A DNA stretch of 64,000 bases from Tibeticola sediminis (GTDB taxonomy: Bacteria; Pseudomonadota; Gammaproteobacteria; Burkholderiales; Burkholderiaceae_C): contig NZ_RKQL01000001.1 of assembly GCF_003843835.1 (NCBI RefSeq), forward strand, positions 930,001-994,000, in the 5' to 3' direction. A program made the translations under genes and the position numbers. Below are positions 392-10,712 of the stretch, in pieces. Below the pieces are notes generated by a model that was given only the letters and a program-made list of their open reading frames with translations, made no database searches and was not told where the DNA came from. Within the stretch, counting starts at the first letter, position 1, and each line of letters starts with the position of its first letter.

Positions 392-1060
392 TCAGAGCGC
401 GCCGAGCCAGCACGCACGCTGCACCGCTGCGAGCTTGTTGTCGACGCCCAGTTTGGCCATGGCATTGGCCAGGTGGTAGTTCACGGTGCGCTCGCTGCAG
501 CCGATCCGTTCGGCCACCTCGCGCGCGGTCAGACCGTCGAAGGTCAGCGCGAGGCATTGCCGCTCGCGCGGGCTGAGCAAGCCCTCGGCCTCGACGATGG
601 ACCGACGCAACTGCGGCCAGATATTCATCACCGACCAGACGACGCCGACCGCGTCGGTGCGATCGTGGAAAGCGCAGGAGCTGAACAAAAAACACTCGAA
701 CGCACGGCCTCCCGGCAGACCAAACTCGACCCGCACGAGACTTTGGAAACCGTGTCCGAGACACAGGCGCCGCCAGCGATTGCCTTCGTCGAATGCCGAC
801 TTCGCCAGGTGCTGCCAGGCCACCAGGGGCGCGCCGGACGCCGTCCAAGCGGGGCCAAAAGCGTCGCTCTGGGCCAGCGCCTCCGCAGCGACGCGCAACA
901 CCGGCGGATACACGGCCACCACGCGCCGCGTGGCCCCCGAATCCAGCCACTGGGGCCCGAGAATGATGACGGCCTCGACCGACTGACTGCGTAGGCCGAG
1001 CAACCAGTCGGCCAGCAGCGGGTCGAGCGCAGTGCTGTCAGAGTTCTCAGGGTGGTCCAT
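392..1060 (-). CDS. LuxR-family transcriptional regulator, orphan (LuxR solo-like)
   Basis: A 222-residue protein. The last 65 residues form a clear LuxR/FixJ helix-turn-helix ([20 protein letters not shown], then [15 protein letters not shown]), so it should bind DNA. The N-terminal 150 residues show the loose pattern of an autoinducer-binding domain ([20 protein letters not shown] resembles the conserved G-x-P-x-G stretch). I cannot verify the acyl-homoserine-lactone contact residues, and no luxI-like synthase is in the window. It starts at 1060 behind a CGAGG-type ribosome site and is divergent from the CqsS-like kinase. A role in the neighbouring quorum-sensing circuit is inferred from position only. 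Confidence 0.75.
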
Positions 1061-1239: not shown

Positions 1240-2493
1240 ATGCGGCGCCTGCGTGACGTGACGCTGGCGGTGCCGCTGGAGCCGATCCTGCACGCCTCGC
1301 CGCTGCGCCTCAAGCTGCTCGGGCTCTACACGATGATTGGCCACCCGCTGTTTTATTTCGTCTGGGAACACCTGTATCCGCAGCCGTTCGAGGATGCCGC
1401 CCTGCGCGCGTTGATGACCGCATGCGGCATCCCCCTGGTGCTTGACTCGGTCGCCCTGCGTCCGCATAGCCAGCGAAGCGCGCGCGTCTTCACCACCGTG
1501 CTGTTCATCCAACTGCCGCTGTTTTTCAGCTGGATGTACTTCATGAACGGTCACAACGACGTTTGGATCGCCAGCTTGGCGACCGTCATCGTCATCTATT
1601 TCCACTTGACCGATTGGCGGGTGGCCGCCGCAGGCTCGTTGCTCGGCCTGGGGCTCGCGGCCCTGCTGGCGCTGCCCTTCACCGAAGCACACTCGGGTGG
1701 ACTGCCCCCGCCCCACGCCTTCGTCCTGGCATTCGCATGGATGTCGGGCTTGCTGCTGGGCATTTCGGGCGCCAACCTGCGGCGCGAGCGGATCGAGCAT
1801 TCGCTGGCCACGATCGGCATCATGGCGCACGAGCTGCGCACGCCCTTGGCCACCACCGCACTGATCGCCGATGCGCTGCGCATGGAAGCACAACGCAAGA
1901 GCGGCGAGGGGCCGCGCCCCGAGTCGCTCGAAAAATGGGCGGCGCGGTTGCACCAGCTCACCCGGTCCATGAACCATCACATCGACCTGCAAATCGCCAA
2001 TGCGCGGCTGCTTCAACTCAGCGACCATGGCGACCGCATCTCGGCGGCCGAACTGGTCCGTGAAGCGGTCGCTGCCTACCCGTACCGTAGCGACAAGGAA
2101 CGTGAATGCATCCGCATCGAGGTCCACCAAGACTTCGAGTTTCGCGGCAGTCGCAGCCAGTTTCTGCGGGTGATCGACAATCTGCTTCAAAACGCGCTGC
2201 GGGCGATGCACGCGACGGGCAGCCCGCTGCGACCCGGAGGCATCCGCCTCGAGGTCGGAATTCGGGGGAAACAGGGCCGCATTCGGGTATCGGATCAAGG
2301 TCTGGGCATCGCCCCGGAGGTGCTGCCGCATGTGCTCGAACCCTTTTATTCGACCGAGGCCGGAACCGGTCATGGCCTGGGCTTGGCATTCTGCCGGCGG
2401 GTCGTCGAGTCTGCGGGTGGCGTGATCGAGGTTCGCAGCCCAGCAGGCAGCGGCGCCATCGTGTCCCTTACCGTGCCGGTTGCCGAGTCATGA
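1240..2493 (+). CDS. CqsS-like membrane sensor histidine kinase (alpha-hydroxyketone receptor family)
   Basis: Predicted receptor kinase for a long-chain alpha-hydroxyketone autoinducer. With the ATG at 1240 it has 417 residues. About six membrane segments fill the first 185 residues. The stretch GLYTMIGHPLFYFVWEHLYP closely resembles the CqsS sensor region of Vibrio cholerae (FPAYYFIWEYWFPQ). The phospho-accepting His197 lies in MAHELRTP. The segment AYPYRSDKERECIRIEVHQD again matches CqsS. ATPase boxes N (NLLQNALRAM), G1 (DQGLGIAPEV) and G2 (GHGLGLAFCRRVV) follow. It lacks the fused receiver of V. cholerae CqsS; a separate response regulator overlaps its stop instead. The start is uncertain: TTG 1207 or an upstream start near 1096 are possible. 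Confidence 0.88.
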   Translation: MRRLRDVTLAVPLEPILHASPLRLKLLGLYTMIGHPLFYFVWEHLYPQPFEDAALRALMTACGIPLVLDSVALRPHSQRSARVFTTVLFIQLPLFFSWMYFMNGHNDVWIASLATVIVIYFHLTDWRVAAAGSLLGLGLAALLALPFTEAHSGGLPPPHAFVLAFAWMSGLLLGISGANLRRERIEHSLATIGIMAHELRTPLATTALIADALRMEAQRKSGEGPRPESLEKWAARLHQLTRSMNHHIDLQIANARLLQLSDHGDRISAAELVREAVAAYPYRSDKERECIRIEVHQDFEFRGSRSQFLRVIDNLLQNALRAMHATGSPLRPGGIRLEVGIRGKQGRIRVSDQGLGIAPEVLPHVLEPFYSTEAGTGHGLGLAFCRRVVESAGGVIEVRSPAGSGAIVSLTVPVAES

Positions 2494-3491
2494 GAAAACC
2501 CACCGATATCGCCTGCTTCCCACTCTATTGGAGACCGGGTCGGGTCGCGTTCCTCGACGACGATCCCGACTATCTGGAAATGCTCGCCGAGGTCATGCCC
2601 GAAGATTGGGCGGTCTCGCTGTTCGAGCAACCGGCGGCCTTCATCCGCAGCCTGCAACAGGAGCCCCCGCTCGAATCCACCGATGAGTGGCAACACCGCC
2701 GCATGCTCGAGCGCTGGCGCGACGGGGCGGCGCTGATCCCCCAGCTCGTCGAATACTGGCGGCAGGATGGACAGGCCCGTTACGCGCGGCACAACGTCTG
2801 CGTGGTCGACTATTCGATGCCCGCCATGAACGGCATCGAAGCGCTCGACGAGCTGGTGCAATGGTCCGGGCACCGCGTGCTGCTGACCGGTCGCGCGGAC
2901 GAGCAAATCGCCGTGCGAGCGTTCAACCGCGGCATCATCGACCAATACATCCCGAAGCAGTCACCCGACATCACCGAGCGCCTCATCAGCTGCGTGCGCG
3001 AACTGCGCGCGCTCACGTCCGAGCGCCTGCAGCAGACCTGGCGCAACACGCTGAGCTGGACCCAGCTGCAGCTCATGCGGGACACCAGCGTCGCCGGCGC
3101 CTTGCGGGCTGCCCTGGACCAGCGCGGGTGTGTCGAGCATTTCGTCATCGGCGACCCCTTTGGCGTACTGGCGCTCGATGCCGAGGGGCGCAGCTGGTGG
3201 CTGCAGCTCGAAACGCCCAGACGGCTCGAGGAGCTCGCGCAGCTCGCGCAAGAGATCGGCTTCGATGCCCAGACACAGAACGACATCCGCGCCGGGCGCT
3301 GCGTGCTCGACGCCGAACTGACCCTAGGCCTGGGGCGTTCGCGGCGGCAGGCCGAGCGGCACCCAGCGCAGCGGCTCGACTGCGGCCCCGAACTCTACGG
3401 AGCCTGCATCGCCCTGTCCGAGGCGTGGTGCCCCGGCGCCGCAAGCGCCTACCGCAGCTATCTCGACCGCGCCCGTCTGCTGCGCGGCTGA
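2490..3491 (+). CDS. LqsR-like response regulator with atypical output domain
   Basis: A 333-residue response regulator whose ATG overlaps the kinase stop (ATGA), so the two are translationally coupled and very probably partners. The receiver has acidic residues at 23-25 (FLDDDPDY), the phospho-acceptor Asp107 (VVDYSMPAMNG), the Thr switch (LLTGRAD) and the conserved Lys (IPKQSPD). The gap between the acidic pocket and Asp107 is about 45 residues longer than in ordinary receivers. The C-terminal 170 residues contain no helix-turn-helix, GGDEF, EAL or kinase motif that I recognise. Size, layout and context resemble Legionella LqsR; that assignment is inference. Convergent with the cqsA-like gene. 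Confidence 0.8.
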   Translation: MRKPTDIACFPLYWRPGRVAFLDDDPDYLEMLAEVMPEDWAVSLFEQPAAFIRSLQQEPPLESTDEWQHRRMLERWRDGAALIPQLVEYWRQDGQARYARHNVCVVDYSMPAMNGIEALDELVQWSGHRVLLTGRADEQIAVRAFNRGIIDQYIPKQSPDITERLISCVRELRALTSERLQQTWRNTLSWTQLQLMRDTSVAGALRAALDQRGCVEHFVIGDPFGVLALDAEGRSWWLQLETPRRLEELAQLAQEIGFDAQTQNDIRAGRCVLDAELTLGLGRSRRQAERHPAQRLDCGPELYGACIALSEAWCPGAASAYRSYLDRARLLRG

Positions 3492-3557
3492 GGCAGCGCC
3501 GCGCGCGGGGGCGGCGACTCTGGCCTTTCGGAGAAGTGGACTCGCCCGCACCGAGCG

Positions 3558-4826
3558 TCAATCGGCCACGGCCTCGCCCACGCGCTGCCGGCGGGCGAGC
3601 GGCCATTTCCACGGCTCGACGATGGGGGCGATTTGCTCGGCCACCGAGACGGTGTAGTCGAGCTCGGCATCGGTCAGCCCGGCGTGCACCGTCAGGCGCA
3701 CCATGGTCCGATTTCGACTGGTCGCCGGAGCGCAGAAGACGGCACCGAACACGCCACGCTCTTCGAGCGCATCACGAAGAATCATGGTCGCAGGCTCGGT
3801 GCCGGCTTCGAGCGCAATGATCTGCTCGGTGCCCTGGTGGATCGGATAGCCCAAACCTTCGAGCGCGCGGCGCAGGCGTCGGGTCTGCCGGTGCAAGGCT
3901 GCCCTCGCTTCGTCGGCGCGCTGGATGACGTCGAAGGTGGCTGCCAGCGCCGCGATTTCATGCCCCAGCAGGCAGGAACTGAACATGTTGGGGTAGCTGG
4001 TGCTGAGAACGTAGTTGCGCATGTTCGTCGGCAGGGTCATGAAGCCCGCGCGGCCGGCAAAGGCTTTGGCGAGGCTCGCGGTGATGAAATGCACGCGCTC
4101 GCTCAAGCCCAGTGCTTTGCACAAACCCGCCCCCTGGGGGCCATGGGTGCCCAGCGAGTGCGACTCGTCGACGACGATCATGCAACCCATACGCTCGGCG
4201 ACCTCGACCATTTCCACCAAGGGGCAGACGGCCCCGGTGGTGCTGTAGACCGAGTCGACGACGACGACGCCAGGGCCATGGCGTGCCACGGTGCGCTGCA
4301 AATGCTGCGGATCGTTGTGGCGGAACACCTGCATCGGTGCCCCGGCACGACGAGCCCCTTCCCAGAGCGAGGTGTGTGCCAGGGTGTCGAGATACACCGG
4401 CGTTTCGGGGTCCGCGATCGCTTGCAGCAGGCCAAGGTTGGCTGCATAGCCCGACTGGCAAATCAGGCCGTCCTCATGACCGACGAAGGCTGCCAGCCCG
4501 CGCTCGAGCGCCCGTGCCGGGTGCGTGTCGAGCAGAAAGACGCTCGACTGAATGACGTAGTCCGCATCCCGGCGCAAAGCCTCCGTCTGCGCGGCGACGA
4601 TCTCCGGGTAGCCAGTCAGGTTGAGATAGTCATTGCCGTTGAGGCGCACGGCCTCGGGCCCGGCGTCTCGGCCGTGGAGAAGCGAGCGGCCGCCCCAAAG
4701 CGTGTCCCAGCGGGTGCGAAACTCCCGCACAATCCGCGCTTCGAGATGCGCACTGATCGGCGCCGAGCGGCCGCTCGAGTTCCAGGCCGGGTTTGGTTTT
4801 TGCGAACGTGTTTGAGCGATTTCCAT
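3558..4826 (-). CDS. cqsA: CqsA/LqsA-like alpha-hydroxyketone autoinducer synthase
   Basis: A PLP-dependent alpha-oxoamine-synthase-fold enzyme of 422 residues, predicted to condense an acyl-CoA with an amino acid or SAM-derived donor to make a CAI-1/LAI-1-type signal. Several blocks match Vibrio CqsA nearly word for word: RHGPGVVVVDSVYSTTGAVC, VDESHSLGTHGPQGAGL and FGAVFCAPATSRNRTMVRL. The PLP lysine is Lys254 in TASLAKAFAGRAG. These blocks separate it from BioF/KBL/HemA relatives. The start at 4826 is set by a GGAGG six bases upstream; an in-frame start at 4865 lacks a site. Two palindromes lie 40-80 bases upstream. It faces the response-regulator gene tail to tail across 66 bases. Confidence 0.92.
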   Translation of the reverse strand: MEIAQTRSQKPNPAWNSSGRSAPISAHLEARIVREFRTRWDTLWGGRSLLHGRDAGPEAVRLNGNDYLNLTGYPEIVAAQTEALRRDADYVIQSSVFLLDTHPARALERGLAAFVGHEDGLICQSGYAANLGLLQAIADPETPVYLDTLAHTSLWEGARRAGAPMQVFRHNDPQHLQRTVARHGPGVVVVDSVYSTTGAVCPLVEMVEVAERMGCMIVVDESHSLGTHGPQGAGLCKALGLSERVHFITASLAKAFAGRAGFMTLPTNMRNYVLSTSYPNMFSSCLLGHEIAALAATFDVIQRADEARAALHRQTRRLRRALEGLGYPIHQGTEQIIALEAGTEPATMILRDALEERGVFGAVFCAPATSRNRTMVRLTVHAGLTDAELDYTVSVAEQIAPIVEPWKWPLARRQRVGEAVAD

Positions 4827-4867
4827 GGCTGCCTCCGAGGGTGATAAACCCATTGAAGGCACCAACC

Positions 4868-4905
4868 GTGACTTTTGTCACGAAATCGACTGTCAGGATT
4901 GACAG
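4868..4905. promoter_or_regulatory. Tandem palindromes upstream of cqsA, candidate operators
   Basis: Two perfect inverted repeats lie in the gap between the cqsA-like gene and the dioxygenase gene: GTGAC-TTTT-GTCAC at 4868-4881 and CTGTCA-GGAT-TGACAG at 4890-4905. Both have four-base spacers and share TGAC/GTCA-type half-sites. They lie 42-79 bases upstream of the cqsA start, where a dimeric regulator could act on the cqsA promoter. The binding protein is unknown. Confidence 0.5.
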
Positions 4906-4956
4906 GGAGTGAGGCGGACGCTCACCCCCTCCCGCGCGCCGCAGGCAACTCGCGCC

Positions 4957-6081
4957 TCAGTTTTGGCGCCAGGGCAGCCCGTGAAAACGCCAGCCGCCTT
5001 TGTGTCCGCGCTGCGCGTGTTCGTCGGGGTCACCCTCGAAGCCTTCGAGGATGTTGTAGGCCTCGATCCCGAGTTCGGTGGCGCGCCGGGCGCCCGCGAT
5101 GGAACGAACCCCGCTGCGGCAGAGCAGCACGAGCGGTTTGCCTTGCGCCGCGGCGCGGCGCAGCCCAGCGTCGAAATCCGGGTTCGGGACCATGCCGGGC
5201 CACTGCTTGAGCGCCACCGCCTCGGCACCGGGGACGAACCCAACCCATTCGCGTTCGGCATCGGTGCGCACGTCGACCAGCACTGCGCGCCCGGCCTGCA
5301 CCCAAGCCCAGGCGAGCTGCGGCGTGAGGTCGCCCGCGTACCCTTCGGCCGGGCGGGGCGCATCGACACCCATGGCTTCGGCGTCGTGCCGCAGCCCGCT
5401 GCGCAGGTTGGCTGGAACGGCCTCCGCGATGCGCCGCGGAGGCGGCAGGTTCAGCGCGTTCATGAGCGCGACGAATTCTTCGAGCGTCTTGCCCGCAACC
5501 CGGGGGTTCTGGGTTTTCTCCTCGGCGATGGTCGAATGGCTGCGGCCTTGATAGTCGTGCCCCGGCCAGACCACCGTGTCGTCCGGCAGCGCGAACAGCA
5601 CCTCGGTCAGACTGCGGTACATCGCCGCCGGGTCGCCGGACTGAAAATCGGTGCGGCCGCAGCCCCGGATGAGCAAGGTATCCCCAGTGAACACGTGACG
5701 CTCGGCCCCACGGTCCCAGAAATAGCTCATACTGCCTGCGGTGTGTCCCGGGGTATGGAGGGCGAGGACCTTTTCGCGGCCAAAGGCCAGGGTATCGCCG
5801 TGCTTCAACTGCACCGCAGCGGTCGCGATGCCGCAGGCCGCCGGCGCGACCGTTTTGGCGCCCGTGTGCTCGGCCAGCAAACCGGCGCTCGTGATGTGGT
5901 CGGCGTGGGCGTGGGTCTCGACCGTCCACAGCAGTTTGAGACCGTATTCGCGCAGGGTGCGCAGGTCGCGCTCGAGCTGTTCGTCAACCGGGTCGATGAT
6001 CAAGGCCTCGCGGCTGTCCTCGTCGAACAGCACATAGGTGAAGGTGCTCGACGCAGGGTCGAACAGCTGGATCGGGTTCAT
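4957..6081 (-). CDS. Persulfide dioxygenase-rhodanese fusion (ETHE1-like)
   Basis: A 374-residue fusion in sulfide/persulfide detoxification. Residues 1-235 are a metallo-beta-lactamase-fold ETHE1-type dioxygenase with the metal site HAHADH (57-62), later HTPGHT, TGDTLLIRGCGRTDFQ and PGHDY; it oxidises glutathione persulfide to sulfite. Residues 255-370 are a rhodanese domain with the catalytic Cys321 in LLCRSGVRS, which can move sulfur between thiosulfate and glutathione. Fused forms of this type are known in proteobacteria and firmicutes. It lies 18 bases downstream of a CsoR/CstR-family repressor gene on the same strand, so the two probably form an operon controlled by reactive sulfur. Read-through into cqsA is possible. 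Confidence 0.92.
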   Translation of the reverse strand: MNPIQLFDPASSTFTYVLFDEDSREALIIDPVDEQLERDLRTLREYGLKLLWTVETHAHADHITSAGLLAEHTGAKTVAPAACGIATAAVQLKHGDTLAFGREKVLALHTPGHTAGSMSYFWDRGAERHVFTGDTLLIRGCGRTDFQSGDPAAMYRSLTEVLFALPDDTVVWPGHDYQGRSHSTIAEEKTQNPRVAGKTLEEFVALMNALNLPPPRRIAEAVPANLRSGLRHDAEAMGVDAPRPAEGYAGDLTPQLAWAWVQAGRAVLVDVRTDAEREWVGFVPGAEAVALKQWPGMVPNPDFDAGLRRAAAQGKPLVLLCRSGVRSIAGARRATELGIEAYNILEGFEGDPDEHAQRGHKGGWRFHGLPWRQN

Positions 6082-6099
6082 GCGTGGCTCCCGCTTGCT

Positions 6100-6345
6100 T
6101 CAGGCGAATTTGGTGAGCATTTCGGCGACATGCTCGGGCGGCTGGTCTCCTTGCTCGATCATGCAGCCCACCATCGAGAAAAAGGACTTGTCGAGCGCCT
6201 TGCGCGCGGCGGCCAGTTGCTGCGCGATCTTTTCACAGTCGGCGTCGGTTTCGATGAGTTTTTGCACACCGCGCAACTGCCCTTCAATGCGGGCCAGACG
6301 GGCGCACAAGGCTTTCTTCTTCTCGGCGTCGACGATTCTGCTCAT
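6100..6345 (-). CDS. CsoR/FrmR-family (DUF156) repressor, likely thiol or persulfide sensing
   Basis: An 81-residue all-helical repressor with the family signature ARLARIEGQLRGVQKLIE. It keeps the conserved first cysteine (Cys37 in DADCEKI). It lacks the copper- or formaldehyde-sensing histidine of CsoR and FrmR; a second cysteine, Cys61 in MVGCMIEQ, sits next to that position. A Cys pair without His, and location directly upstream of a persulfide dioxygenase, favour a persulfide-responsive CstR-like role over copper sensing. The effector is inference. The start at 6345 follows a GAGG site; longer upstream reading has no family similarity. Confidence 0.85.
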   Translation of the reverse strand: MSRIVDAEKKKALCARLARIEGQLRGVQKLIETDADCEKIAQQLAAARKALDKSFFSMVGCMIEQGDQPPEHVAEMLTKFA

Positions 6346-6469
6346 GAAACGGCCTCGGTCTAGTGAATGATCGTCCCATGATAGCGAAGCGCCCTGGGCA
6401 CGGCTGCGCCCTGCGCGTCTATCCCCCGCAAGCGCCACGGTTCGACAAGGTCGGCCGCAGCCGCTAAGA

Positions 6470-6491
6470 TTGACGTTTACGTAAACGTCAA
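6470..6491. promoter_or_regulatory. Perfect 22-bp palindrome upstream of ppk2-icmF, candidate operator
   Basis: Two abutting 11-base half-sites, TTGACGTTTAC and its exact reverse complement, end 24 bases before the PPK2 start. A -35-like TTGACG forms the left end, with a poor -10 (TCGATT, 6493-6498) 17 bases on, so a bound dimer would block the promoter. The TTTACGTAAA centre resembles sites described for the MerR-type regulator LiuR of branched-chain amino acid degradation. That link is from memory and unproven. Confidence 0.55.
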
Positions 6492-6515
6492 CTCGATTCT
6501 TCACCCCTTTCTGCC

Positions 6516-7361
6516 ATGGCGGCTGCATTTTCCGGTGCCGACGAGCGCCTCGCCCCTTGGGTGGTTCCCGCCGCAGGCGAGGGCCGCGTCTTTACGCTCG
6601 CCGCTCTGAAGCCCTCGGCCAAGCCGTTCTCGAGTGGCGACAAGGCGCGGGACGAGGCCGCCGTCGATGCGCTCGCGCTCGACCTCGATGCGTGGCAGAA
6701 CCTGTTTTACGCCGACCGCCGGCACCGGTTGCTGGTCGTATTGCAGGGCACCGATGCTTCGGGCAAGGACGGCACGATCCGCCGGGTCTTCGGCCGCATG
6801 AGCCCCTTGGGCGTGCGCACCGTGGGCTGGAAGGCGCCGAGCGAGGCGGAGCGGGCCCACGACTATCTCTGGCGCATCCACGCTCAGGTGCCGGGCGATG
6901 GCGAGATCATGGTGTTCAACCGCAGCCATTACGAGGATGTGTTGGTTCCAGTGGTCCAGGGCTGGATCGATGAGCGGCAGACACGGCAGCGCTATGCGCA
7001 CCTCAATGATTTCGAGCGGCTGCTCACCGAAACCGGCACGACGGTGGTGAAGTTCATGCTGCACATCAGCCGTGAGGAGCAGCGCGAGCGGCTGCAGGAG
7101 CGCCTCGACGACCCGACCAAGCGCTGGAAATTCCGCCTCGAAGACCTCGAGGCGCGCAAGCACTGGGACGACTACCAACGAGCCTACGAGGCGATGTTGC
7201 GCGCGACCAGCACACCCTGGGCGCCATGGATCGTCGTGCCGGCCAACTCGAAGCTGCACCGCAATCTGATGGTCGCGACCGTGCTGCGCGACGTGTTCGC
7301 TTCGATGGGCCTGAGTTATCCGCCCGATGATCCGGCGCTGGCCGGACTCCGGATCGACTGA
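6516..7361 (+). CDS. ppk2: PPK2-family polyphosphate:nucleotide phosphotransferase
   Basis: A 281-residue cytoplasmic kinase that moves phosphate between polyphosphate and nucleoside mono- or diphosphates. Walker A is LQGTDASGKDGT with Lys84, and the Walker B region is MVFNRSHYEDVLVP. A lid rich in Arg and Lys follows (DDPTKRWKFRLEDL). Single-domain length and these motifs fit the class III/one-domain PPK2 proteins; the direction (nucleotide synthesis or polyphosphate use) cannot be read from sequence. No strong ribosome site precedes the ATG. A 22-bp palindrome lies just upstream and icmF starts 42 bases downstream, so co-transcription is likely. Confidence 0.92.
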   Translation: MAAAFSGADERLAPWVVPAAGEGRVFTLAALKPSAKPFSSGDKARDEAAVDALALDLDAWQNLFYADRRHRLLVVLQGTDASGKDGTIRRVFGRMSPLGVRTVGWKAPSEAERAHDYLWRIHAQVPGDGEIMVFNRSHYEDVLVPVVQGWIDERQTRQRYAHLNDFERLLTETGTTVVKFMLHISREEQRERLQERLDDPTKRWKFRLEDLEARKHWDDYQRAYEAMLRATSTPWAPWIVVPANSKLHRNLMVATVLRDVFASMGLSYPPDDPALAGLRID

Positions 7362-7403: not shown

Positions 7404-10400
7404 ATGACCGACCTATCCGCCGACTACCAGGCGCTCGCCGCCTACCGACCGAAGCACAAGGTGCGTTTCGTCACCGCTGCGAGCCTGTTCGACGGGCATG
7501 ACGCGGCCATCAACATCATGCGCCGCATTCTGCAGAGCATGGGCGCGGAAGTGATCCACCTCGGCCACAACCGCAGCGTCGACGAGGTGGTGAGCGCGGC
7601 GCTGCAGGAAGACGTGCAGGGAATCGCCGTCAGTTCCTACCAGGGCGGCCATGTCGAGTATTTCAAATACATGGTAGACCTGCTGCGCGCGCGGGGCGGC
7701 GCGCACATCCAGGTGTTCGGCGGCGGCGGCGGCGTCATCGTGCCGAGCGAAATCCGCGAACTCGAAGCCTATGGCGTGACCCGCATCTACAGCCCCGAGG
7801 ACGGCCAGCGCATGGGCCTGGCCGGCATGATCGGCGAGATGGTGATGCGCTGTGACCGCGACCTGAGCGGCTTCGCACCCACTTCGCCCGAAGCCATCGC
7901 CGGCCACACCGAGGCCGCCTGGCGCGCGCTGGCCCAACTCATCACCGCGCTCGAGAATTCCAAGCTTTCTGCGGCGGATGCCAGCGCCATTCGGTCTGTT
8001 GCTGCTACAAAAAAGATACCCGTCTTGGGCATTACGGGCACCGGCGGCGCGGGTAAATCGAGCCTGACCGATGAGCTGATCCGCCGCCTGCGGCTGGACC
8101 AGGACGACGCGCTGCGCATCGCAGTGATCAGCATCGACCCCTCGCGGCGCAAAAGTGGTGGCGCGCTGCTGGGCGACCGCATTCGCATGAACGCGATCGG
8201 CCCGTGGCGGCAGGGCCCGCGGGTGTTCATGCGCAGCCTGGCCACGCGTGAGACGGGCAGCGAGATCAGCCAGGCGCTGCCCGACGTGATTGCGGCGTGC
8301 AAGGCCGCGGGTTTCGACCTCATCATCGTCGAGACCAGCGGCATCGGCCAGGGGGACGCCGCGATCGTGCCGCATGTGGACGTGCCGATGTATGTGATGA
8401 CGCCCGAGTTCGGCGCCGCCAGCCAGCTCGAGAAGATCGACATGCTCGACTTCGCCGAGTTCGTGGCGATCAACAAGTTCGACCGCAAGGGCGCGATGGA
8501 CGCGCTGCGCGACGTGTCCAAACAAGTGCAGCGCAACCGCGAAGCCTGGGGCGTGCCGCTCGAGCAGATGCCGGTGTTCGGCACCATGGCCGCGCGCTTC
8601 AACGACGACGGTGTGACGGCGCTGTACCAGGCGCTGCGCGCGCGTCTGGCGGCCCTGGGCCTGCCGGTGCGCGAAGGGCGGCTTGCGCCGGTGACGGTGC
8701 GACACAGCACCAACCAGACCCCGATCGTGCCCGCGGCGCGCAGCCGTTACCTCGCGGAAATCGCCGAAACGGTGCGCGGCTACAAGCGCCGCGCGCGGGC
8801 GCAGGCGCGGCTCGCGCGCGAGCTGCAACAGCTGCGCGAAACCGCACGCATGCTGCTCGAAGCCGACCCAAACAAAGACGGCAGCGCCAAGCCCGGCGCC
8901 TACGGCACGGTGATGGCGCTGGCCGAAGCGCGCGCCGAGCGGCTCGAACCCGCCTGCGCCAAGCTGCTCGCGCAATGGGATGACCTGCAAAAGGCCTACG
9001 CGGGCGACGAATACGTGGTGAAGATCCGCGACAAGGAAATCCGCACCCGTCTGACGCACACGACGCTGTCGGGCAACAAGATCCGCAAGGTCGCCCTGCC
9101 CCAGTATGAAGACGATGGCGAGCGGCTGCGCTGGCTGATGCTGGAAAACGTGCCGGGCAGCTTCCCCTACACCGCTGGCACGTTTGCGTTCAAACGCGAG
9201 AACGAAGACCCCACGCGCATGTTCGCCGGCGAGGGCGACCCCTTCCGCACGAACCGGCGCTTCAAGCTGCTCTCCGAGGGCATGCCAGCCAAGCGGCTGT
9301 CCACCGCCTTCGACTCGGTCACGCTCTACGGCAACGACCCCGACCGGCGGCCCGACATCTGGGGCAAGATCGGCAACTCGGGCGTGAGCGTGGCCACGCT
9401 CGACGACATGAAGGTGCTGTATTCGGGCTTTGACCTGTGCGACCCGGCGACCTCGGTCAGCATGACCATCAACGGCCCGGCACCGACCATCCTGGCGATG
9501 TTTTTCAACACCGCGATCGACCAGGCGATGGACAAATTCCGCGCCGACAACGGCCGCGAACCGACCGATACCGAAGCGGCCAAGATCAAGGAGTGGGTGC
9601 TGGCCAATGTGCGCGGCACGGTGCAGGCCGACATCTTGAAAGAAGACCAGGGCCAGAACACCTGCATCTTCTCGACCGAGTTCAGCCTCAAGGTCATGGG
9701 CGACATCCAGGCCTATTTCGTGCACCACGACGTGCGCAATTTCTATTCGGTCTCGATCAGCGGCTACCACATCGCCGAAGCCGGCGCGAACCCGATCAGC
9801 CAGCTCGCGTTCACGCTGGCCAATGGCTTTACCTATGTGGAGTCGTACCTGGCGCGCGGCATGCACATCGACGAATTCGCGCCGAACCTGAGCTTTTTCT
9901 TCAGCAACGGCATGGACCCCGAATACACCGTGCTCGGCCGCGTGGCCCGGCGCATCTGGGCCGTGGCGATGAAAGAAAAATACGGCGCCAACGAGCGCAG
10001 CCAAAAGCTCAAATACCACATCCAGACCAGCGGCCGCAGTCTGCACGCGCAGGAGATTCAGTTCAACGACATCCGCACCACGCTGCAGGCGCTGATTGCC
10101 GTCTACGACAACTGCAACAGCCTGCACACCAACGCCTTCGACGAAGCCATCACCACGCCGACCGAAGACAGCGTGCGCCGCGCGATGGCGATCCAGCTCA
10201 TCATCAACCGCGAATGGGGTCTGGCGAAGAACGAAAACCCGAACCAGGGTGCGTTCATCATCGACGAGCTGACCGAACTGGTCGAAGAAGCGGTGCTCGC
10301 CGAATTCGAGCGCATCAGCGAACGTGGCGGTGTGCTGGGCGCGATGGAGACCGGCTACCAGCGCGGCAAGATCCAGGACGAGAGCATGCATTACGAGATG

Positions 10401-10712
10401 CTCAAGCACACCGGCGAACTGCCCATCATCGGCGTCAACACCTTCCGCAATCCGCACGGCGACCCGATCCCGCAGACCCTCGAGCTCGCGCGCAGCACCG
10501 AGGCGGAAAAGCAAAGTCAGCTCGATCGGCTCGAAGACTTTCACCGCCGCCACGCCGCCGAGGCACCCGCAATGCTCGAGCGGCTCAAGCAGGCTGCCAT
10601 GGCGCATGAAAACGTGTTCGAGGTTCTGATGGACGCCGTGCGCTGCTGCTCGCTGGGTCAAATCACCGACGCGCTCTTCGAGGTCGGCGGGCAGTACCGG
10701 CGGAACATGTGA
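7404..10712 (+). CDS. icmF: Fused isobutyryl-CoA mutase (IcmF)
   Basis: A 1102-residue adenosylcobalamin-dependent mutase. Domains in order: B12-binding (residues 18-150; lower-ligand motif with His32 in [10 protein letters not shown]), a MeaI-type G-protein chaperone (Walker [12 protein letters not shown], Lys218; switch region [11 protein letters not shown]), a linker, and the acyl-CoA mutase TIM barrel (from about 560; [31 protein letters not shown]). This order is that of IcmF, not methylmalonyl-CoA mutase. It interconverts isobutyryl- and n-butyryl-CoA, and some members act on pivalyl- or isovaleryl-CoA; the exact substrate is not settled here. It follows ppk2. A pyrimidine-rich run rather than a Shine-Dalgarno precedes the ATG. 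Confidence 0.94.

Follow-up and report, generated by a model that had tools for sequence, protein, structure and literature searches.

The 64,000-nucleotide stretch of Tibeticola sediminis DNA analysed here, hereafter the window (contig NZ_RKQL01000001.1, positions 930,001 to 994,000), carries a signalling locus of the alpha-hydroxyketone (AHK) type, an identification that is far beyond chance. The genes for the synthase, the kinase and the LqsR-type regulator are joined by a fourth conserved gene, which encodes a DNA-binding protein of LuxR-like predicted fold (the LuxR-fold gene), and by two lux-box-like repeats. The four genes, their order, their conservation and the two repeats are established by sequence comparison. 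On balance, we favour the view that they form a four-gene quorum-sensing module, in which the signal would pass from the AHK to the kinase, the regulator, the LuxR-fold protein and finally its operators. The features are as follows.

Positions 392-1060, minus strand: LuxR-fold DNA-binding regulator of 222 amino acids, with a predicted LuxR-like/GAF-like N-domain and a GerE helix-turn-helix.
Positions 1034-1051, minus strand: operator-like CTG-N10-CAG site embedded in the LuxR-fold gene (codons 4-9), the weaker copy.
Positions 1240-2493, plus strand: CqsS/LqsS-type membrane histidine kinase without a receiver, 417 amino acids, with HATPase_c (1e-22), HELRTP and the sensor motif.
Positions 2490-3491, plus strand: LqsR-type response regulator, 333 amino acids from ATG 2490, with GTG 2463 as a possible start.
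Positions 3558-4826, minus strand: AHK autoinducer synthase, 422 amino acids, identified by NF005526, the match to CqsA 2wk8 and the tree.
Positions 4852-4857, minus strand: TTCAAT, a core-promoter-like element between operator and synthase (place counted by hand).
Positions 4889-4906, minus strand: lux-box-like operator CCTGTCAATCCTGACAGT, centred 71 bp before the synthase ATG, with one mismatch to the pattern.

The first-pass annotation had placed an AHK synthase, a CqsS/LqsS-type kinase and an LqsR-type regulator within 1240-4826, which is borne out by NF005526, the domain matches and the motifs. It had also called this locus complete, and here it has to be amended, since the fourth conserved gene at 392-1060(-) lies outside that interval. 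The product of this gene is matched by Pfam GerE (2.7e-17), and its AlphaFold model, which has a mean predicted local distance difference test (pLDDT) score of 87.4, matches QscR, RhlR and TraR across both domains. The 62 aligned relatives are 49-66% identical to the protein of the window, and the GerE domain is found in all 63 members. None of the 63 matches Autoind_bind (PF03472), the domain that binds N-acyl homoserine lactones (AHLs), at E-values up to 1, and in a profile comparison with 12 Autoind_bind LuxR proteins the alignment covers only the later part of the N-domain together with GerE. A search of the genome with PF00765 (LuxI) gave no match, and the control genomes gave none either. 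The automatic names given by JGI to close relatives are SolR (LuxR quorum regulator) for some and CsgD family for others.

The conservation of the gene was followed in the best 80 of 239 stretches encoding a synthase relative, obtained by scanning named genomes. In 76 of these 80 related loci, kinase and LuxR-fold gene are divergent; of the remaining four, L018, L036 and L087 lie on contigs that stop short of the place concerned, and in L078 (Polaromonas sp. OV174) the gene is truly absent within 17 kb. Among 14 wider loci fetched from a sample of the taxonomic order, L131, which belongs to the window's own family, has all four genes. The 13 loci from other families show no LuxR-fold gene, barring L130, where the DNA-binding domain is weakly matched; the stretches of L126, L128 and L132 are too short for its absence to be certain. 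The gene thus appears to be characteristic of the window's family. For AHK loci of the Comamonadaceae, no description of a gene of the LuxR type was found in the open-licence literature.

CTG-N10-CAG follows the lux-box consensus. It precedes the synthase, with its centre about 73 bp from the ATG, in 75 of 79 loci (the window included) that offer at least 150 bp of upstream sequence, a limit that sets aside L025 and L051; it was not found there in L024, L030, L038 and L078. The background expectation is 0.13 occurrences per 250 bp. Most of the 75 loci have the form CCTGTCA-N4-TGACAGG or a near form, and in 63 of the 75 TTCAAT stands at 41-42 bp from the operator centre. The repeat also occurs inside the LuxR-fold gene itself, at codons 4-9, in 74 of 77 cases, among them the window. 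Codon choice is frozen at this embedded repeat: in 76 LuxR-fold genes (the cut gene of L072 being left out), the codons of Pro4, Phe7 and Asp8 are the three invariant ones among 107 conserved-residue columns, while CCT accounts for 10.3% of proline codons and TTT for 34% of Phe codons in these genes. CCT is forced by the repeat pattern, yet it is also present in the three genes that fail the pattern. Codon 7 of the window's gene is TCT, which encodes serine.

Repeat and LuxR-fold gene go together across loci and genomes. In all 15 synthase loci in which no LuxR-fold gene was found and the upstream region is whole (L132, with a cut synthase, was left out), the best site scores 7-12 of 14, like random stretches; the score of 12 in L119 was reached in 5 of 2000 random draws. 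Genome-wide counts covered 40 of the 42 other genomes with a LuxR-fold gene, leaving out G294 (weak match) and G569 (partial). The exact repeat occurs in 27 of these 40 (64 sites), in contrast to 2 of 40 genomes without a LuxR-fold match (2 sites), and many of the repeat-bearing genomes share a genus, so that their repeats are not independent. In the genome of T. sediminis, 4889-4906 is one of two places at most one mismatch from the repeat pattern. Of the 64 exact sites, 24 lie before a synthase, two at synthase-less loci and 38 elsewhere. For 36 of these 38 the surroundings were fetched, and the neighbours that recur among them are a ShlB/FhaC-type secretion protein (4 genomes), a phosphonate-type binding protein (3), a GH5 cellulase-like protein (3), an NDH-2-like protein (2) and TctC (2), the names resting on Pfam runs on one or two examples each and the starts on calls by script. 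In five genomes, a gene that we take to be rsmD-like is also found near exact repeats.

The association with the regulator is seen where the rest of the locus has been lost. Among 399 genomes of the family, the LuxR-fold gene occurs in 43 and the synthase in 35, with both in 33; the regulator occurs in 51, of which 42 carry the LuxR-fold gene. Nine of the ten genomes with a LuxR-fold gene and no synthase were inspected over 12-13 kb each (G569 is not among the nine), and no kinase of this type was found in the stretches fetched. In eight of the nine, regulator and LuxR-fold gene still stand back to back, and the regulator keeps its phospho-site residues in all eight; G294 has only a partial LuxR-fold match, and its regulator is distant and on the same strand. 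Because of this pattern of loss, a form of gene association, the LuxR-fold protein is tentatively placed next to the regulator in the pathway. At odds with the pairing, nine genomes carry the regulator without the LuxR-fold gene; in L220, L221, L222 and L224 the regulator adjoins a persulfide-dioxygenase-like gene, and neither synthase nor kinase nor LuxR-fold gene was found in the 13 kb fetched.

The kinase is of the CqsS/LqsS type and the regulator of the LqsR type. In the kinase, the boxes HELRTP (residue 197), N, G1 and G2 were all found, and the protein terminates right after the ATPase domain. It therefore has no hybrid receiver, as the first-pass annotation had stated. A simple hydropathy profile, tested for six transmembrane helices, gave overlapping segments between residues 53 and 180. 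Of 18 stretches inspected, 14, among them the window, match a looser pattern derived from the sensor block GHPLFYFVWEHLYPQP; the exceptions are L020, L067 (Polaromonas sp. JS666), L078 and L225. The kinase is likely to sense an AHK. The frame of the regulator, read from ATG 2490, overlaps that of the kinase by 4 nt. Pfam Response_reg matches the regulator (2.8e-8), which has a receiver with a phospho-aspartate, its residues D32, D33, D116, T142 and K165 are kept in 16 of 16 loci checked, its output domain is of the LqsR type, and its model aligns with LqsR 6sy9 along its length (VIA-align). The available text of a 2012 review (PMC3376566) describes the C-terminal part of LqsR as similar to no known output domain and its function as unknown. 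No DNA-binding domain is recognised in the LqsR-type regulator, so any effect of its phosphorylation on promoters would pass through the LuxR-fold protein.

Taken together, the favoured four-gene module would work as follows. The synthase would make an AHK, which the membrane kinase would sense and the LqsR-type regulator relay. The phosphorylation state of the regulator might then act on the LuxR-fold protein, and the back-to-back position of the LuxR-fold gene and the kinase-regulator pair would provide the setting for this relay, which we infer from gene association. The LuxR-fold protein is likely to bind the lux-box-like repeats, both the one upstream of the synthase and the one in its own coding sequence. 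Occupancy of the upstream site, which lies some 73 bp from the synthase ATG and at a near-fixed distance from the core-promoter-like element, would activate the synthase and thereby close a positive loop, and binding in codons 4-9 may limit the protein's own expression or serve the divergent kinase promoter. Furthermore, a small set of other genes may be activated by the LuxR-fold protein.

The main rival, and the bolder reading, is that the LuxR-fold protein itself serves as a receptor inside the cell, for the ketone or for the amino precursor of the ketone, much as LuxR does for AHLs. It would act in parallel to the kinase, and the kinase-regulator pair would have other targets. We give this reading about one chance in four. 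A little less probable still is that the ketone is read twice, by the membrane CqsS-type kinase and by an intracellular LuxR-type protein, and that a CqsA-type synthase is under autoinduction through a lux box. It is rather unlikely that the LuxR-fold protein, as a factor that is constitutive or under some other control, sets synthase expression and receives no input from the AHK pathway. The gene persists where synthase and kinase are missing from the locus, and its link to the regulator has no direct support, which would fit such a factor, but it co-occurs with the module and adjoins it.

That the synthase is instead a metabolic enzyme like BioF, KBL or serine palmitoyltransferase is very improbable: the pyridoxal phosphate (PLP) fold is common to all and the bioF model matches at 220.5 bits, but this lies under the bioF cut-off of 426.45, the NCBIfam model NF005526 (AHK-type autoinducer synthase) matches with 560.5 bits, well over its cut-off of 428, and a kinase and an LqsR-type regulator adjoin; the metabolic identity was rejected on these scores and on the tree. 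The best PDB match is CqsA 2wk8 (E 1.9e-98; serine palmitoyltransferase, 6.8e-40), with 162 of 360 aligned positions identical. The block VDESHSLGTHGPQGAGL is one residue apart from V. cholerae CqsA in the alignment, and K267 (numbered from TTG 4865) aligns with CqsA K236, presumably the PLP lysine. In a tree of 38 rows, which held no named CqsA or LqsA rows and for which the program gave long-branch warnings, the synthase falls inside a set of 26 AHK synthases (branch 95/96). Clustering with BioF or KBL, the outcome set beforehand as speaking against its identity, was thus not observed. The outgroup comprised 12 rows, obtained from 17 loci and including three that NCBIfam names; 11 of these rows form a separate set (100/100), while L105 is closer to the AHK set than any other row outside it. 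This protein (L105:1507-2523, G015:C1) is itself AHK-synthase-like, with NF005526 as its best match at 298 bits, below the cut-off, and a long branch.

From its sequence, the product of the synthase is predicted to be an AHK. Of the nine acyl-pocket residues listed for CqsA in PMC3285556, five are identical and four differ in the window's synthase. According to the same text, the listed residues fail to explain the difference in chain length between two Vibrio species; for this reason, a prediction of chain length from the pocket was given up.

The arrangement of the locus had been regarded as its own variant. Kinase and regulator are indeed convergent with the synthase, on opposite strands with 66 nt between the regulator and synthase frames, but this order is common: the regulator lies behind the synthase on the opposite strand in 80 of 80 related loci, with the kinase behind the regulator in 79, and the synthase faces the regulator-kinase pair in 10 of the 14 loci from the sample of the taxonomic order, nine of these ten belonging to other families.

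AHK clusters with LqsR-type regulators are known from betaproteobacteria, and it is the LuxR-fold partner with its repeats that forms the new part. Such clusters, lqsR being present in some, are listed for Ralstonia eutropha, Burkholderia xenovorans and Polaromonas in PMC3376566, and Jqs is described for Janthinobacterium in PMC3566124. The Legionella Lqs system (LqsA/LqsS/LqsR) shares the synthase family and a kinase with a separate LqsR-type regulator; unlike this system, as far as PMC3376566 could be consulted, the window has no hdeD between the genes, and it has the LuxR-fold gene and the lux-box-like repeats in addition. The named transcription factor of the Legionella network is LvbR in the available text of PMC10692735. 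The Jqs system (JqsA/JqsS/JqsR) is likewise an AHK cluster of a betaproteobacterium, in which the regulator is separate and the synthase is preceded by a palindrome; however, the JAI-1 motif is TTGA-N6/7-TCAA rather than CCTGTCA-N4-TGACAGG (PMC5080296), and no LuxR-type gene is named for the cluster in the accessible sections of PMC5080296 and PMC3566124. The Vibrio Cqs system (CqsA/CqsS) resembles the window in its synthase, including the conserved K236, whereas the window's kinase lacks a receiver and its regulator is encoded by its own gene. With LuxI/LuxR systems and LuxR solos, the window shares the GerE domain, CTG-N10-CAG before a signal synthase and, by prediction, probably the LuxR-like fold; unlike in LuxI/LuxR systems, this synthase is of the CqsA type and the LuxR-fold members do not match Autoind_bind.

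Now that an LqsR-type regulator has been found next to a conserved gene whose product binds DNA, together with a defined repeat, the route by which such regulators reach promoters becomes testable. It could be studied in ordinary freshwater and soil bacteria, and the repeat would provide an operator-reporter for AHK signalling. If the favoured module is real, the repeat of the window type and the JAI-1 motif would belong to different transcription factors, and a LuxR-fold switch on the synthase gene would help to explain how AHK signals reach their target genes.

Some further genes were observed in these stretches. L201:1809-2258, near an exact operator, encodes an N-acyl amino acid synthase of FeeM-like type, as matched by PF21926, with a relative in L183 about 460 bp past an exact operator. 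In the window, a metallo-beta-lactamase-fold and rhodanese protein, which we take to be persulfide-dioxygenase-like, and a protein of the metal-sensitive-repressor family adjoin the synthase (4957-6528), and many of the 80 related loci have a gene of the former type close to the synthase. Further along, an open frame of 1102 amino acids at 7404-10712 looks, judged by eye, like a fused acyl-CoA mutase.

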